The position numbers and the translations under genes were made by a program. From Methanoculleus bourgensis MS2 (lineage in GTDB: Archaea > Halobacteriota > Methanomicrobia > Methanomicrobiales > Methanoculleaceae), in contig NC_018227.2 in the NCBI RefSeq assembly GCF_000304355.2, positions 62,001 through 126,000 of the forward strand: a DNA stretch of 64,000 nucleotides. The letters are read 5' to 3'. Below the pieces are notes generated by a model that did no database searches, was not told where the DNA came from, and saw only the letters and a list, made by a program, of their open reading frames with translations. Shown here piece after piece: positions 52,750 to 64,000 of the stretch; position 1 is the stretch's first letter; each line of letters opens with the position of its first letter.

Positions 52750-52923
52750 AATGAACACCTCCTCCTGGGTGAGTGGTGGATAATATTTCCTGAGAGGCGA
52801 TTGTTTCCCCTGATTATAAGTATTGTGGTTCCGCTCCCCCGGCCGGCGGGCGAGCACAGTCCGCGACAGGTTTATCCATTTTCCAGGGAGAAATCTCCTG
52901 ACTGGAGTGCCAACGGATGCATC

Positions 52924-52934
52924 GGTATATAAAA
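52924..52934 (+). promoter_or_regulatory. TATA box of arcA-arcC
   Basis: ATCGGTATATAAAAATAC reads as a strong archaeal TATA box. It lies about 120 bases before arcA, giving a leader of roughly 95 bases with a GC-rich hairpin near its end. Confidence 0.55.
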
Positions 52935-53053
52935 ATACATCTCTACGGCCTGCTGGCGTTTGCCGTCTTTCCAGGCATCAGTTCCATCATCGAAGGTCAG
53001 GAAGGCCGGGTTCACGCTGCAGTGACCGCCCCCGGGCGGGGGCGGTGAGACTG

Positions 53054-54352
53054 ATGACAGCGAGGGTTCGGGCAGAGTGGGAGAAGCTCCGGAGGGTTGC
53101 CGTCCACAGGCCGGGGATCGAGATGTTCTTCGGGTTGCTTGAGCCGTATGCGGCGCTCTACGAACGGGCGTTCAGCCGCTACGAGGCGCGCCGGGAGCAC
53201 GAGCGCCTCGAGTACACCCTCAGGGAGGAGTTCGGGGTCCGGGTGCTGCGGCTCAAGGAGACCATCCTCGACGCCGCCGACCGCGACCCGGCGGTGCGCC
53301 GGCGGCTCGTCGACTGGGCACATGAGACCGTCACCATCAGGGGCGGGAGGCAGGAGGTGGCGGAGGCCCGCAGGAGCATGGAGCAGAACGCAGACGCCCT
53401 GGACTCGCAGCACTTCTTCACCCTCCTCCTCTTAAACCCGGTCATCGAGGTGGGAGAGGGAAGCACCGGCGGCGGGGTGGACGTCCGGATTATGGGGCAG
53501 GAACCGCTTGCAAACCTCTACTTCATGCGCGACCAGCAGGCGGTTACTGAATGCGGCCTGGTCAGCGGCCGGCCGGCAAAGCCCCAGCGGTCCCGGGAGG
53601 CTGAGATAACCAGGTTCCTCTGGGAGATCATCGGCATCCCCATCGCCGGGACGGTGCGGGAACCCGGGACCTTTGAGGGCGGCGACTTCATGCCGATGGG
53701 GGATTTTGCCCTCATCGGCACCGGAGACCGGACGAACGAGGCCGGGATCCACCAGTTCCTCGCCTGTGCCACGGGTTTTGACGAGATTGGCGTCGTCCAC
53801 CAGCCGGGCCACCCGCTCGTCCCGAGCAGGCGGCCTGACCCGATGATCGACATGCATCTCGACACCTACTTCAACGTCGCCTCGAGCGGGGTGGTGATCG
53901 GCTCCGAGATCCTCCTCCGGAGGGCGCAGGTCGACGTCTACCACCGGACAGGCGAGGGATACGAGTCATCGGGGGAGACCACGACCCTCTATGACTACAT
54001 CCGATCGAAGGGATTTGCGGTGATCGATCTCTCGATCCTGGAGCAACTCTCCTACGCCGCAAACGTCCTCTGCGTACGGGACGGCGTCATCCTCACGGTG
54101 GAAGGGGAGCGGGTGATGAAGACGGTGCTTGCGAACCTGGAGCGGAAGGCCGCGGTTGATACGGCGCGCTACGGGCGGCTCCTCCGTCACGCTGAGGAGG
54201 ACTACCGCCGGATCAGGAACGTCGGGCAGTTCTTCCCGCACAAGGCGGAGTTCTACCAGCATGATATCGAGACCTGTCCGCTGCACTTCGAGAACCTGAC
54301 CGGGGGCTACGGTGGTCCCCACTGCATGACCTGCGCACTGGAGAGGGGGTGA
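53054..54352 (+). CDS. arcA: Arginine deiminase
   Basis: 432 residues from ATG 53054. Hydrolyses arginine to citrulline and ammonia. Catalytic features are present: TFEGGDFMPMGD (Asp), MIDMHLDTYFNVAS (His) and the C-terminal GGPHCMTCALERG with the nucleophilic cysteine. The family N-terminus (EWEKLRRVAVHRPG) fits. Next gene is carbamate kinase; ornithine carbamoyltransferase is not in the window. The start is supported by GGTGA upstream. Confidence 0.9.
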   Translation: MTARVRAEWEKLRRVAVHRPGIEMFFGLLEPYAALYERAFSRYEARREHERLEYTLREEFGVRVLRLKETILDAADRDPAVRRRLVDWAHETVTIRGGRQEVAEARRSMEQNADALDSQHFFTLLLLNPVIEVGEGSTGGGVDVRIMGQEPLANLYFMRDQQAVTECGLVSGRPAKPQRSREAEITRFLWEIIGIPIAGTVREPGTFEGGDFMPMGDFALIGTGDRTNEAGIHQFLACATGFDEIGVVHQPGHPLVPSRRPDPMIDMHLDTYFNVASSGVVIGSEILLRRAQVDVYHRTGEGYESSGETTTLYDYIRSKGFAVIDLSILEQLSYAANVLCVRDGVILTVEGERVMKTVLANLERKAAVDTARYGRLLRHAEEDYRRIRNVGQFFPHKAEFYQHDIETCPLHFENLTGGYGGPHCMTCALERG

Positions 54353-54357
54353 ACCGG

Positions 54358-55302
54358 ATGGTGGAGAAGGCTGTGGTGGTCGCGCTTGGCGGCAACGCCA
54401 TCCTGCGGCATCAGGAGATGGGAACCGCTGAAGAGCAACTTGCAAACGTCCGCCGGACATCGCGGCATATCGTGGATATCATCCGCGAGGGTTACGACGT
54501 CATCATAACACACGGGAACGGGCCGCAGGTGGGGGATATCCTCCTCCGGAACGAGATGGCGAAAGATACCCTCCCGCCGATGCCGCTCGACATCTGCGGG
54601 GCCGAGAGCCAGGGGATGATCGGGTATATGCTCCAGCAGTCGCTGAATGAGGCCCTCAGGGAGGCAGGGCTCGCCCGTCCGGTCGTGGCTGTGCTGACGC
54701 AGACCCTGGTGAAAGGCGATGACCCGGCGTTTGGGAACCCGACGAAACCAATCGGCCCGTTCTATACCGCCATGCAGGCAAAGAGGCTCATGGTGGAGAA
54801 GGGCTGGAAGATGGTGCAGATCCGGGGACGGGGTTACCGGCGGGTGGTCCCCTCGCCGCGCCCGGTCACCCTCGTGGAGGGAGAGGTGATCAACCGGCTC
54901 TTCAGGGGCGGGGCGGTCGTGATCGCCGCAGGCGGCGGGGGCATCCCGGTGGTCGCCGGTCCGGGCGGCACCCTCCGCGGCGTCGAGGGCGTGGTGGACA
55001 AGGACTACACCGCGGCGCTCCTCGCCCGGCTCGCCGACGCCGACGACCTGCTGATCCTGACCGATGTTGACTACGTGTTCTTAAACTACGGGTGCCCGGG
55101 CCAGCAGGCACTCCGTGAGATGACGGTTGCCGAGGCAAAACAGCATCTTGAGGCGACGCATTTCCCGCCCGGGACCATGGGGCCGAAGATCGAGGCGGCC
55201 ATCGCGTTTCTGGAGGCCGGGGGGCGCCGGGTGGTTATAACATCGCTTGATTCGGCAGGTGACGCCCTGGCCGGGCGGGTGGGCACCTGGATCCACCGGT
55301 AG
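54358..55302 (+). CDS. arcC: Carbamate kinase
   Basis: 314 residues from ATG 54358 (GTG 54349 possible). Motifs of the amino-acid kinase family: VALGGNAILRH, THGNGPQVGDILLRNE and LILTDVDYVFLNYG near residue 240. Makes ATP from carbamoyl phosphate, or in some archaea makes carbamoyl phosphate. Its start overlaps or nearly overlaps arcA, so the ADI pathway is arranged arcA-arcC. Confidence 0.95.
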   Translation: MVEKAVVVALGGNAILRHQEMGTAEEQLANVRRTSRHIVDIIREGYDVIITHGNGPQVGDILLRNEMAKDTLPPMPLDICGAESQGMIGYMLQQSLNEALREAGLARPVVAVLTQTLVKGDDPAFGNPTKPIGPFYTAMQAKRLMVEKGWKMVQIRGRGYRRVVPSPRPVTLVEGEVINRLFRGGAVVIAAGGGGIPVVAGPGGTLRGVEGVVDKDYTAALLARLADADDLLILTDVDYVFLNYGCPGQQALREMTVAEAKQHLEATHFPPGTMGPKIEAAIAFLEAGGRRVVITSLDSAGDALAGRVGTWIHR

Positions 55303-58823: not shown

Positions 58824-60395
58824 ATGGAGCTCGCGATTGGGAAGGCCGGGGACCGTGACATCACGGTCGATGCCCAGGAGGTGGTCACAGGACGGACCTG
58901 CATCATCGCGCAGTCGGGTGCCGGGAAGAGCTGGGGCATCGCGGTCCTCTGCGAGCAGCTCCTCCAGGCGCGGATCGGGTTCTGCCTCATCGATACGGAG
59001 GGCGAATACTTCTCGCTCAAGGACCGGTTCTCCCTCATCTGGATCGGCTCAGGCGAGAGCTGTGACGCGGAGATCGGGAAGACTGATATCAGGGAGGTGA
59101 TGCACGACGCGATCCGCTCCCGGACGGCGGTGATCTTCGATGTCTCGGAGGCAGAGGATATGCGCGACGAGGTGGCGAAGCTTGCCGAGATCCTCTACGA
59201 CCTGGAGAGTAGACTGAAGCAGCCCTTCCTGCTGATCGTGGAGGAGGCTGACAAGTTCATCCCCCAGATTGGCGTCTCCATAAAAAAGATTGAGGAGATC
59301 TCCCGCCGGGGGCGGAAACGCGGGCTCGGGTTGATGGTCGCGACGCAGCGCCCGTCGCTCGTGGCAAAGAATGTCCTCTCGCAGTGCAACAGCCAGATCA
59401 TCGGGAAGCTCTCGATCGAGAACGACTTAAAGGCAGTCAGCCTCTTCTTCTCGTCCCGGAAGGAGGTCGAGGAACTCGCAGAGCTTGAGCCGGGGGAGTT
59501 CTTCGTGATGGGCGGGCTCTCCCGGGAGAAGGTGAAGATGAAGTTCCGCGACCGGGTGACGAAGCACCGGGGGGTGACGCCCCGTCTTGTGCCTGCACCG
59601 CCGGTCCCGGTACCGGAGTCCCCTGCTGCCCCTCCGGAGGAGGAAGTGGGGGAGGACCCGCCTGCCGCCGGGGATGCGGTTATCCCGGTGCTGCTCCGTG
59701 AGGAGGCGCTCGATATCGCGAAGGGTAAACGGAAGCGCCGGTTCCGGATACTCGAACCTGAAGAGCGGATCGTCTCCGGAGAGCGGGTCTACAGGCCGCT
59801 TCTTGCGGTGGAGGTCCGCTACCTCGGCGGGTTTATCCGGAAGACGACGAAGACCGCGTCGTTCGTCCTCGACGCCTGCACCGGCTGTATCGTCGAGCTG
59901 GACCGCGGGATGAAGGTCAGGCCCGGGTTCTCTGAACTCCTGGGGCTCGATGAGGCGGCGGTGAAGATCGTCGCAGGGCTTGCGAACGGCGGCTCGACGG
60001 TGGCCGAGATCGAGGCCGACACCCACCTCCCGCCCGGCGTGGTGAAGAAGGCGGTGAAGCAGCTCGCACAAGCAAAGCTCATCACCGAGGTGAAGACGAT
60101 GGGCAGCGCCGTGGTGTATGTACCCCTGCTCACCGAGGAGGTCCCGGGATTGCACGCCCTCCGGCGGGGGGAGGATCTCCCGATGGAGCCGCTCCGGGAG
60201 GTGCCTCTCGAAGCGAAGGTCACGGAGTCCTCTCTCCGGACCATCCTGAAAGGGCTTGAGCCGACGGCCGAGATCGTCGGGCTTGAGACGATCTACTACC
60301 CGGTCTATGAGATCTGGTTTGCATCGGAGCACGGGGAGCGCTCGATCGTCCTCGACGGCATCTCCGGAAAGGAACTCCCTCTCCCGGTATCCTGA
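58824..60395 (+). CDS. HerA/VirB4-type ATPase with winged-helix tail
   Basis: 523 residues. N-terminal ATPase with Walker A AQSGAGKSWG near residue 33, Walker B FLLIVEEADKF near residue 135, sensor LMVATQRPSL near residue 172. A proline-rich linker (about 255-285) is followed by a C-terminal part with a winged-helix-like unit (EADTHLPPGVVKKAVKQLAQ). Related to HerA and archaeal DUF87 proteins. No NurA neighbour, so a role in DNA end resection is not implied. A repeated YPVYEIWFAS region ends the protein. Confidence 0.85.
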   Translation: MELAIGKAGDRDITVDAQEVVTGRTCIIAQSGAGKSWGIAVLCEQLLQARIGFCLIDTEGEYFSLKDRFSLIWIGSGESCDAEIGKTDIREVMHDAIRSRTAVIFDVSEAEDMRDEVAKLAEILYDLESRLKQPFLLIVEEADKFIPQIGVSIKKIEEISRRGRKRGLGLMVATQRPSLVAKNVLSQCNSQIIGKLSIENDLKAVSLFFSSRKEVEELAELEPGEFFVMGGLSREKVKMKFRDRVTKHRGVTPRLVPAPPVPVPESPAAPPEEEVGEDPPAAGDAVIPVLLREEALDIAKGKRKRRFRILEPEERIVSGERVYRPLLAVEVRYLGGFIRKTTKTASFVLDACTGCIVELDRGMKVRPGFSELLGLDEAAVKIVAGLANGGSTVAEIEADTHLPPGVVKKAVKQLAQAKLITEVKTMGSAVVYVPLLTEEVPGLHALRRGEDLPMEPLREVPLEAKVTESSLRTILKGLEPTAEIVGLETIYYPVYEIWFASEHGERSIVLDGISGKELPLPVS

Positions 60396-60803: not shown

Positions 60804-61044
60804 CTAGTGGAGCATTTCATCTAATATTTCCTATGAAAACCACCCGATTTGGCGAGTGGGGGTCATGGCTCTGTTTGTGCCCCGGGTCCGGCTTGTGCGG
60901 GGAGGGGGTCTCCCCCTCCCCTGCCCCCACCCCCCAGGATGATAGCCACCACGGTCCCCTGCCCGGGCTCGCCCGGAGAGCGTAGCCTGATGGTTGTTTC
61001 ATGTGCACCTTCGCCTCACGCGAGTGGTTGGCGATCCGCACTAG
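60804..61044 (-). repeat. CTAG-bounded element, family B, short copy
   Basis: About 240 bp. CTAGTGGAGCATTTCATCTAATATTTCC starts it, then GATTTGGCGAGTGGGGGTCATGGCTC, the G/C block and GCCACCACGGTCCCC. It ends at CTAG 61041, which is also the start of a family A copy. Confidence 0.85.
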
Positions 61045-61218
61045 TGGAGCATTGCATCTAATATTGTCCATGCAATACCATCTCACGCGAAGGGCGCGAA
61101 GCCGCGAAGTTCGGTTGCTGGGCGGCATAGTCCCCTTCGCGTCCTTCGCGCCTTCGCGTGCGGTGGCGATCGCTACTACGCATCAGGACCCGCAACATAA
61201 GGTGAAATGGTCCACTAG
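61041..61218 (+). repeat. CTAG-bounded element, family A, copy
   Basis: Full unit with CTAG at both ends and the same interior as the triple at 11.5 kb. Follows a B copy and is followed by a 36-base fragment bounded by two CTAGs (61215-61250). Confidence 0.88.
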
Positions 61219-61412: not shown

Positions 61413-61931
61413 TCACCCGAACCTGAAGACCCAGAGCCCCTCCCCGGCGATCTCCCGCCCGGCCAGATGCTCAAGTTCGTGGTCGATCCCGTAGGCGGTG
61501 GAGCCGGAGAAGGTCATCTCCGCAACCTCGAGTTCTTCGGTCCTGATCTCGCGCTCGAGCGGGTTGACGGTCATCCTGATGACCCGGTCGGCGCCGAGGC
61601 GCACCCGGTAGGGCCGCTCGACCAGCAGCCGGGCAGGGACCTCACCGCACTTCTCGAGCCGGTGGACCGTGCCTTCACGGTCAAGGAGCACCGGGTTTGT
61701 GAAGAGGTAGATCTCCTCGAGGGAGTAGCCGGTCCGGCTCTCGTCGTCGTAGACCGTGGTCTTCTTCACCGCCGATATGGCGGTGACATCCCCCGAGGCG
61801 TAACTCCAGTCACCCCCGTAGCGGAGCGAGAAGAGGAGGGGGATGAGGGCGTCGGCCGGTATGCCGAACCGGTCGGCAAGCGCGGCCTCTGTGGCGGCAA
61901 AGGCGATCTGTCGTGGAATGTCGCTCTCCAT
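61413..61931 (-). CDS. Peptide deformylase-like metalloprotein
   Basis: 172 residues. The C-terminal half has motifs that line up with peptide deformylase: NPVLLDREG, then EKCGEVPAR (EGCLS equivalent with the metal Cys), VERPYRVRLGADRV and the HELEHLAG zinc motif (HExxH). The N-terminal GxGLAAPQ motif is absent and instead there is YGGDWSYASGDV. Archaea start proteins with unformylated methionine, so a normal deformylase is not expected; another substrate is possible. It is downstream of wtpC, 43 bases, in the same orientation. Confidence 0.65.
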   Translation of the reverse strand: MESDIPRQIAFAATEAALADRFGIPADALIPLLFSLRYGGDWSYASGDVTAISAVKKTTVYDDESRTGYSLEEIYLFTNPVLLDREGTVHRLEKCGEVPARLLVERPYRVRLGADRVIRMTVNPLEREIRTEELEVAEMTFSGSTAYGIDHELEHLAGREIAGEGLWVFRFG

Positions 61932-61973: not shown

Positions 61974-63023
61974 CTATCGGGGGAAGACGTGGACCGCCGA
62001 GGCCTTGAAGGTGACATGGGCCTCTTCCCCTTCGGCGAGGCCCAGGCGGGCGACGCTCTGCCGGGTCAGGACGGCGACGAAGGGCAGGCCTGCGTTGACA
62101 ACGACTCGTGAGAAGATGCCGTTCTGCTGGATCTCGGTCACCGATCCTGAGAAGGCGTTTACGGCGCTCGACTCAAACGCCTCACGGGAGACGATCATCT
62201 CCTCGGGCCTGATGCCGACGCAGACGTCGCCCTCGACCGCGGTGACGGTCCGGAGGGTGATGGCGCCAAGGTCGATCGTCGCCTCCCCGTCCCTGACCCT
62301 CGAGACCCCGTAGAAGACGTTCTCCATGCCGGTGAAGGCGGCGACGAACTCGGTGGCTGGCTTCCTGAAGACCTCGTCCGGCGTCCCTGTCTGGGCGATC
62401 CTCCCGTCCTGCATCACCGCCACCCGGTCGGCGAGGGCGAAGATATCCTCAAAGTGGTGGGTGATGTGGACGACCGTCGTCCCGGTCGCCCGGTGGACGG
62501 CTTTGAGTTCCCGCCTGAGCCGGTCCCGGGTGACGGCGTCGAGCGCCGAGAGCGGTTCGTCCAGGAGGAGGACGCGGGGCCGGAGGACAAGCGCTCTGGC
62601 GATTGCGGCCCGCTGCTGCTCGCCGCCCGAGAGCGTCCCCGGGGTGCGGTCGAGGAGGTGGCCGATCCCGAGCAGGTCTGCAGTCTCAGAGACCAGCTCC
62701 CTGATCCGGTCTGGTTCAGTCTTTCGCTGCAGGAGGCCAAACCCGATATTCTCTTCCACGGTGAGGTGGGGGAAGAGCATGTAGTCCTGGTAGACCATCC
62801 CGATCCCCCGGTCCTTCGGGTCGGTGCGGGTGATATCACGGCCGTCGAGGCTGATCGTCCCCGAAGCGGGCGCATAGATCCCTGCGATCGTCTCAAGGAG
62901 GATGGTCTTTCCCGCACCGGTCGGCCCGAGGATGATGAAGTACTCTCCGTCGTCGACGGTCAGGTCCACGCCGTCGAGGGAGAACTCCCCGAGGGAGAGG
63001 GAGAGCCCCCTGATATCGAGCAT
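61974..63023 (-). CDS. wtpC: Tungstate/molybdate ABC transporter ATP-binding protein
   Basis: 349 residues. Walker A GPTGAGKTILLE, signature LSGGEQQRAAIARAL, Walker B VLLLDEPLSALD; C-terminal TOBE-like domain (GIRPEEMIVSREAF) that may sense oxyanion. The pattern with a CysA-like core and wtpB neighbour indicates tungstate or molybdate uptake; which anion cannot be told. Its start overlaps the permease stop by one base (TGATG). Confidence 0.88.
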   Translation of the reverse strand: MLDIRGLSLSLGEFSLDGVDLTVDDGEYFIILGPTGAGKTILLETIAGIYAPASGTISLDGRDITRTDPKDRGIGMVYQDYMLFPHLTVEENIGFGLLQRKTEPDRIRELVSETADLLGIGHLLDRTPGTLSGGEQQRAAIARALVLRPRVLLLDEPLSALDAVTRDRLRRELKAVHRATGTTVVHITHHFEDIFALADRVAVMQDGRIAQTGTPDEVFRKPATEFVAAFTGMENVFYGVSRVRDGEATIDLGAITLRTVTAVEGDVCVGIRPEEMIVSREAFESSAVNAFSGSVTEIQQNGIFSRVVVNAGLPFVAVLTRQSVARLGLAEGEEAHVTFKASAVHVFPR

Positions 63024-63835
63024 CAGAAGATCCCCCGGCTGTCGCTGTAGCGCTCAAAGACCGCAAGCGACGCCACCGATATGACGATCAGGATGACCGA
63101 TGCGGCGATGGCAAGGTCGAGGTCTCCGGTTGACATGTTCAGGAAGAGCGCGATAGGCAGGGTCTCGGTCTTCATCTGGGTGGCTCCCGCGAGCATGAGG
63201 ACCGCACCGAACTCGCCGATGGACTTAGACCAGGTGATGACGAGACCGGCGACGATGCCGCTCCTGGCCAGCGGGAGGGCGACCTGGCGAAACGCCCCCC
63301 ACTCGGTGCATCCGAGCGTCCGGGCGACGTGCTCGTAGCGGGGGTTGATCGTCTCGAAGGCGGACCGGGTGACCCTGACCATGTAGGGGAGGTTGACGAA
63401 GAACTGGGCGACGATGATCCCGAGCGGGGTGTAGATGACGTCGAGCCCCGTGGCCGAGAGCATCCGCCCGAACGTCGAGGGACCGTAGAAGATGAGCAGC
63501 GCCACGCCCGCAACGAGCGGCGGGAGGGCGAGCGGGATATTGAAGATGCTGTTGATGAGCCCCCTGCCCGGAAACGAGAACCGGGCGAGGGAGTAGGCGA
63601 CCGGGACGGCGGCGACTACACAGAGGGTGGTCGAGATCACCGATGTGATGAGCGAGAGTTTGATGGCAAAGAGGATCTCGGGGGAGGTGAGGCTCTCGAT
63701 GAGGGCCGGGAGCGGCGGGTAGACCACGAGGCCGACGATGACGACGACCATGTAGGCGACCAGACCGAACAAGACTGCGAGAAAGAGCGCCTTAAATGCG
63801 GAGGGGCGGGAGAGGGCATCCCGGTTCGGGGGCAC
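63023..63835 (-). CDS. wtpB: Tungstate/molybdate ABC transporter permease
   Basis: 270 residues from GTG 63835, 12 bases after the trmO stop. About six membrane helices; the EAA loop reads INPRYEHVARTLGCTEWGAFRQVALPL. The inner motif SKSIGEFGAVLMLAG is typical of ModB/WtpB. The longer frame overlaps trmO and is rejected. The binding protein WtpA is not inside the window. Confidence 0.88.
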   Translation of the reverse strand: MPPNRDALSRPSAFKALFLAVLFGLVAYMVVVIVGLVVYPPLPALIESLTSPEILFAIKLSLITSVISTTLCVVAAVPVAYSLARFSFPGRGLINSIFNIPLALPPLVAGVALLIFYGPSTFGRMLSATGLDVIYTPLGIIVAQFFVNLPYMVRVTRSAFETINPRYEHVARTLGCTEWGAFRQVALPLARSGIVAGLVITWSKSIGEFGAVLMLAGATQMKTETLPIALFLNMSTGDLDLAIAASVILIVISVASLAVFERYSDSRGIF

Positions 63836-63846
63836 GGCCGACCAAC

Positions 63847-64000
63847 CTAGAATGATGCGCTCTGCCGCCTGATCTGTTCGACGTGCCGGGGCGTCACCCA
63901 CCCCGATCTCGCGTCAGGGACGCTGTCAAACTCAGGGATGTAGGGCCTGATGTCGAGGACCGGCGTCCCGTCCAGGAGGTCGACGCCCTCGACGGCGATC
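63847..64000 (-). CDS. TrmO (TsaA) family tRNA methyltransferase, 3' part
   Basis: Partial; only about 50 codons of the 3' end. Reads GVDLLDGTPVLDIRPYIPEFD, a strongly conserved TsaA/TrmO signature, then ends RRQSASF and TAG. TrmO methylates t6A37 in tRNA using SAM. It overlaps nothing and is followed 12 bases later by wtpB, so it may share that operon. The start lies beyond the window. Confidence 0.85.
   Translation of the reverse strand, partial: IAVEGVDLLDGTPVLDIRPYIPEFDSVPDARSGWVTPRHVEQIRRQSASF

Follow-up and report, generated by a model that had tools for sequence, protein, structure and literature searches.

Work on peptide deformylase (PDF) treats it as a bacterial drug target linked to fMet, and loss of the glutamine in its motif 1 is expected to cripple classical deformylase chemistry. 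Archaea are described in a 2026 review as lacking FMT and, in general, a canonical PDF (PMC13234167), and O-formyl residues have been reported in proteins of Methanosarcina mazei (PMC4350412). “Type 3” PDFs with altered motifs occur in archaea, trypanosomatids and some bacteria; the archaeal representatives are mostly described as weak or inactive (PMC5591237), whereas those of T. brucei are active (PMC12690207). Because such proteins have already been described, archaeal PDF homologs with altered motifs are known in general, and the clade presented here is a marked variant of that kind. Judging by the published descriptions, type 3 enzymes carry substitutions within the motifs, whereas in this clade motif 1 is wholly replaced. 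No publication on the clade itself was found in the literature searched, where most subscription papers fell outside reach.

The gene lies in the window, the 64,000-nucleotide stretch analyzed here, within a 2.79-Mb Methanoculleus genome, and encodes a PDF-like protein that we call PDFL (Table 1). Relatives are present in 48 of 232 genomes and 10 of 40 genera in a sample of the class, and in 65 of 393 genomes in a sample of the phylum, ranging over Methanomicrobiales, Methanosarcinales, Methanoperedens, and two Methanobacteriaceae. A contig scan with strict patterns returned 35 loci, all archaeal, from Methanoculleus, Methanoperedens, Methanolobus, Methanosarcina, Methanolinea, Methanofollis, and Methanogenium in addition to the two Methanobacteriaceae. 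PDFL is a real gene under purifying selection, as its dN/dS values against named relatives indicate (about 0.08-0.15 by YN00 and 0.15-0.33 by NG86). The Methanoculleus sequences form one clade in the tree (support 100/99), and one genome (G113) carries two copies. The gene is missing or decayed in several Methanoculleus genomes, and partial or decayed forms were seen in G010, G013, G020, G007, G512, and G530; it is thus useful but dispensable.

Table 1 Features of the PDFL locus (window positions).
Feature	Position	Strand	Remarks
PDFL (PDF-like protein)	61413..61931	(-)	ORF, ATG start, 172 aa
Motif 3 equivalent HELEH, residues 151-155	61467..61481	(-)	His151 and His155 predicted ligands, Glu152 predicted catalytic
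Motif 2 equivalent EKCGE, residues 93-97	61641..61655	(-)	Cys95 predicted metal ligand; aligns with EGC of PDFs
GGDWSYA, residues 39-45	61797..61817	(-)	At expected place of motif 1; no Gln
Molybdate/tungstate-type ABC ATPase (WtpC/ModC-like)	61974..63023	(-)	NF040840 WtpC 428 bits, cut-off 440
Molybdate/tungstate-type permease (ModB/WtpB-like)	63023..63901	(-)	TIGR02141 modB 186.6 bits, cut-off 182.6

A first-pass annotation had called the product peptide-deformylase-like and named a profile search against PF01327 as a check. That search gave a sub-threshold match: PDFL scores 19.1 bits, under the 22.8 cut-off, and reaches 13.0 against a cut-off of 103.95 with TIGR00079. We also compared a profile of 70 PDFL sequences with one of 15 PDFs (14 archaeal loci and E. 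coli Def). The two profiles align with an hhalign score of 44.0 (E 2.6e-6), against 22.1 for the best of 200 column shuffles and 21.3 for the reversed profile, and the 29 PDFL members of alignment A2 alone score 39.0 (E 1.8e-5). The alignment starts at the PDF Gln column and spans motifs 2 and 3 in register together with the intervening strands, pairing PDFL E93, C95, R101, R106, H151, E152, and H155 with E. coli E88, C90, R97, R102, H132, E133, and H136.

AlphaFold models of PDFL (pLDDT 94.2) and of a Methanosarcina homolog (91.8) agree in secondary structure. In Foldseek searches of the PDB, ranks 1-22 for the PDFL model are all PDFs (probability 0.99-1.00; next entry 0.20), and every match of the Methanosarcina model with a probability of at least 0.97 is a PDF. 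TM-scores to PDFs are just 0.28-0.50 for both models, with rmsd of 6-12 Å, so that, as modeled, the overall geometry of PDFL differs from that of PDFs or the match is local. PHROGs and a viral fold library returned weak or unnamed matches only. PDFL shares with PDFs (PF01327, TIGR00079) the motif 2 Cys, the motif 3 HExxH, a conserved Glu preceding that Cys and two Arg following it, and the order of the strands and final helix. Unlike them, it lacks the motif 1 GxGxAAxQ, fails to align in its N-terminal part, has extra residues ahead of the last helix, stays under the PDF model cut-offs, and sits in a genome without Fmt. We regard homology to PDF as very probable: the profile-profile score and the PDFs as sole confident structural matches uphold the proposed likeness, while the sub-threshold PF01327 score and the low TM-scores count against it.

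Across 70 distinct full-length relatives, Cys95 is invariant (70/70) within EKC(G/S), the strict EGCLS of PDFs not being retained, and Glu93, Arg101, and Arg106 are each equally constant. HExEH (His151, Glu152, and His155), in which Glu replaces the Asp of the PDF HExDH, is found in 69/70; the sole exception appears to be locus L092, where the reading is out of register. These counts are not those of chance, and they confirm the earlier claim that the deformylase Cys and HExxH ligands are kept. The claim that the first PDF motif is missing also holds, since GxGxAAxQ occurs neither in PDFL nor in any of the 70 relatives, whose motif 1 region contains no conserved Gln. In its stead stands a conserved GGxWS, with Gly39, Gly40, and Trp42 invariant and Ser43 present in 69/70; its place as the counterpart of motif 1 is read from the start of the profile alignment at the template Gln column. 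In the PDFL model, strands are predicted at residues 42-46 and 49-62, and HELEH falls inside a predicted helix (143-156). The KKTTVYD segment was considered as a substitute for Gln50, which is unlikely because its Lys57 is present in merely 44/70 sequences.

The genome that contains the window has no detectable Formyl_trans_C (Fmt) domain in a search that did match ten bacterial control genomes but no archaeal genome. Its sole Formyl_trans_N protein is PurN, and no canonical PDF was found in it. The lack of both Fmt and another PDF supports a role for PDFL outside fMet removal in this genome, which we consider likely from gene content. The general statement in the first-pass annotation that archaea do not formylate is not universal: a Methanomicrobiales genus (g18, probably Methanocorpusculum) has adjacent def and fmt genes, both above their NCBIfam cut-offs. 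The pair lies at 405-893 and 895-1824 of locus L187 (G076 C1), separated by 1 nt, and recurs in G056, G091, G094, and G095. The PDFL family was not found in this genus, which has the canonical PDF. Its def-fmt pair runs counter to the rule that Fmt is missing from archaea and merits a study of its own. These genomes each encode a second PDF as well (loci L140-L144), below the TIGR00079 cut-off, in which GLSAPQ is kept, EGCLS has become EGSPC, and motif 3 reads HEKDHHEG.

The proposed transporter neighborhood is real at this locus. The WtpC/ModC-like ATPase gene ends 42 nt upstream of PDFL and is preceded by the ModB/WtpB-like permease gene, and a ModA-type binding protein gene lies past the window edge on the same strand. 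From upstream, the minus-strand order is thiM-/thiE-like (both named by eye), TrmO-like, ModA-like, TrmO-like, ModB/WtpB, ModC/WtpC, and PDFL. PDFL has a wtpC relative upstream, its end no more than about 115 nt away, at the majority of Methanoculleus loci and likewise in Methanoculleus sp. FWC-SCC1, but the link is missing at five Methanoculleus loci (L060, L067, L070, L071, and L185) and at every PDFL locus outside Methanomicrobiaceae, where the neighbors differ. No PDFL neighbor is conserved across orders; those found are lineage-specific, such as the uracil-DNA-glycosylase/NUDIX-like pair (named by eye) beside the relative in some Methanoperedens. We therefore rejected the wtp transporter as a general functional partner. 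Since the wtpC link is limited to Methanoculleus and a near relative, it is a matter of local history or regulation.

Several other features of the region were recorded. The ModA-like gene of the molybdate/tungstate cluster has a TrmO-type gene on either side (L146 348-833 and 1749-2240, just past the window). At the majority of Methanoculleus loci, a HerA-like ATPase gene (DUF87; window 58824-60395, plus strand) adjoins a major-facilitator-type gene. An arginine-deiminase-like gene overlaps a carbamate-kinase-like gene at 52823-55302 (plus strand; assigned by eye). A dispersed intergenic repeat, CTAGTGGAGCATT(T/G)CATCTAATATT, occurs in 12 copies in the window where none is expected, at 60804-60838, 61041-61075, and 10 further places; there are 87 copies genome-wide, on both strands and in places spaced about 175 nt apart.

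The best reading of the family is a distinct PDF-superfamily clade of methanogenic and methane-oxidizing archaea. PDFL itself would be a divergent metallohydrolase of this superfamily that is probably active, and we put the probability of an active enzyme working on something other than fMet at roughly 0.6; the lost motif 1 Gln and the dispensability of the gene weigh against it. Cys95, His151, and His155 would hold one divalent metal, and Glu152 would activate a metal-bound water for attack on a formyl or small acyl amide. The metal, together with the backbone NH following Cys95, would hold the oxyanion; the conserved GGxWS hairpin might take over from the missing Gln50, or the function of that residue might not be needed. 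The substrate is most likely a small compound carrying a formyl or acyl group, or else a rare damaged protein, rather than an N-formylmethionyl protein. More tentatively, and at somewhat less than even odds, the clade may be a separate enzyme family of the PDF superfamily, restricted to methanogens and methanotrophic archaea, that uses the deformylase mechanism without motif 1 to hydrolyze a metabolite of these archaea bearing a formyl or acyl group.

The main rival is a deformylase-derived protein that binds metal and is inactive, with a structural, sensor, or regulatory part to play. Such a protein would explain why all 70 relatives have lost motif 1 with its oxyanion Gln, and it would resemble the mostly weak or inactive archaeal type 3 PDFs (PMC5591237); a pure metal binder, however, needs no general base, and Glu152 is kept in 69/70 relatives alongside the three ligands, so that we think this reading unlikely. 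Activity might instead be that of a genuine N-formyl-peptide deformylase repairing sporadically formylated proteins. Superfamily membership, the predicted metal site, the O-formyl residues of M. mazei (PMC4350412), and the active T. brucei enzymes (PMC12690207) all lend this idea some credit. It is nonetheless the more doubtful of the two, given the lost motif 1, the unreached PDF cut-offs, a genome without Fmt, and the absence of PDFL from the very archaeal genus that bears Fmt, where a canonical PDF is found instead.

A part in molybdate/tungstate uptake or cofactor handling, tied to the wtp genes, is improbable: the 42-nt spacing and the order kept at the majority of loci in Methanoculleus and in a near relative speak for it, but five loci of the genus break the link and no other family's locus has a wtpC neighbor. 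Least credible by far is a retropepsin-like aspartic protease, the identity implied by the Pfam label “putative ATP-dependent zinc protease” (PF05618 Zn_protease, a RimK-associated retropepsin-like domain). This model matches all 29 A2 members, several above the cut-off (up to 49.1 against 27 bits), and gives PDFL of the window 24.7 against the same gathering threshold. Yet genuine archaeal PF05618 proteins carry a DTGA or DTGA-type motif (alignment A4), which is absent from every PDFL family row, the match in the PDFL family beginning past the catalytic Asp. The two families do not align (hhalign probability 0.3), and no aspartic protease appears in the Foldseek lists of the PDFL and Methanosarcina models. 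The missing motif and the failure of genuine relatives to align led us to reject the retropepsin identity and make the label look like a misannotation; its most probable cause would be that Methanosarcina sequences slipped into the Pfam seed. PF05618, with L090 5971-6513 among its matches, scores two apparently unrelated families over its cut-off, one retropepsin-like with DTGA and the other the PDFL family.

A conserved PDF relative with an intact metal site in archaea without formylation would show this fold in another job. PDFL would also test how far the motif 1 Gln is needed, and would correct a “zinc protease” label that misleads for Methanosarcina and its relatives.
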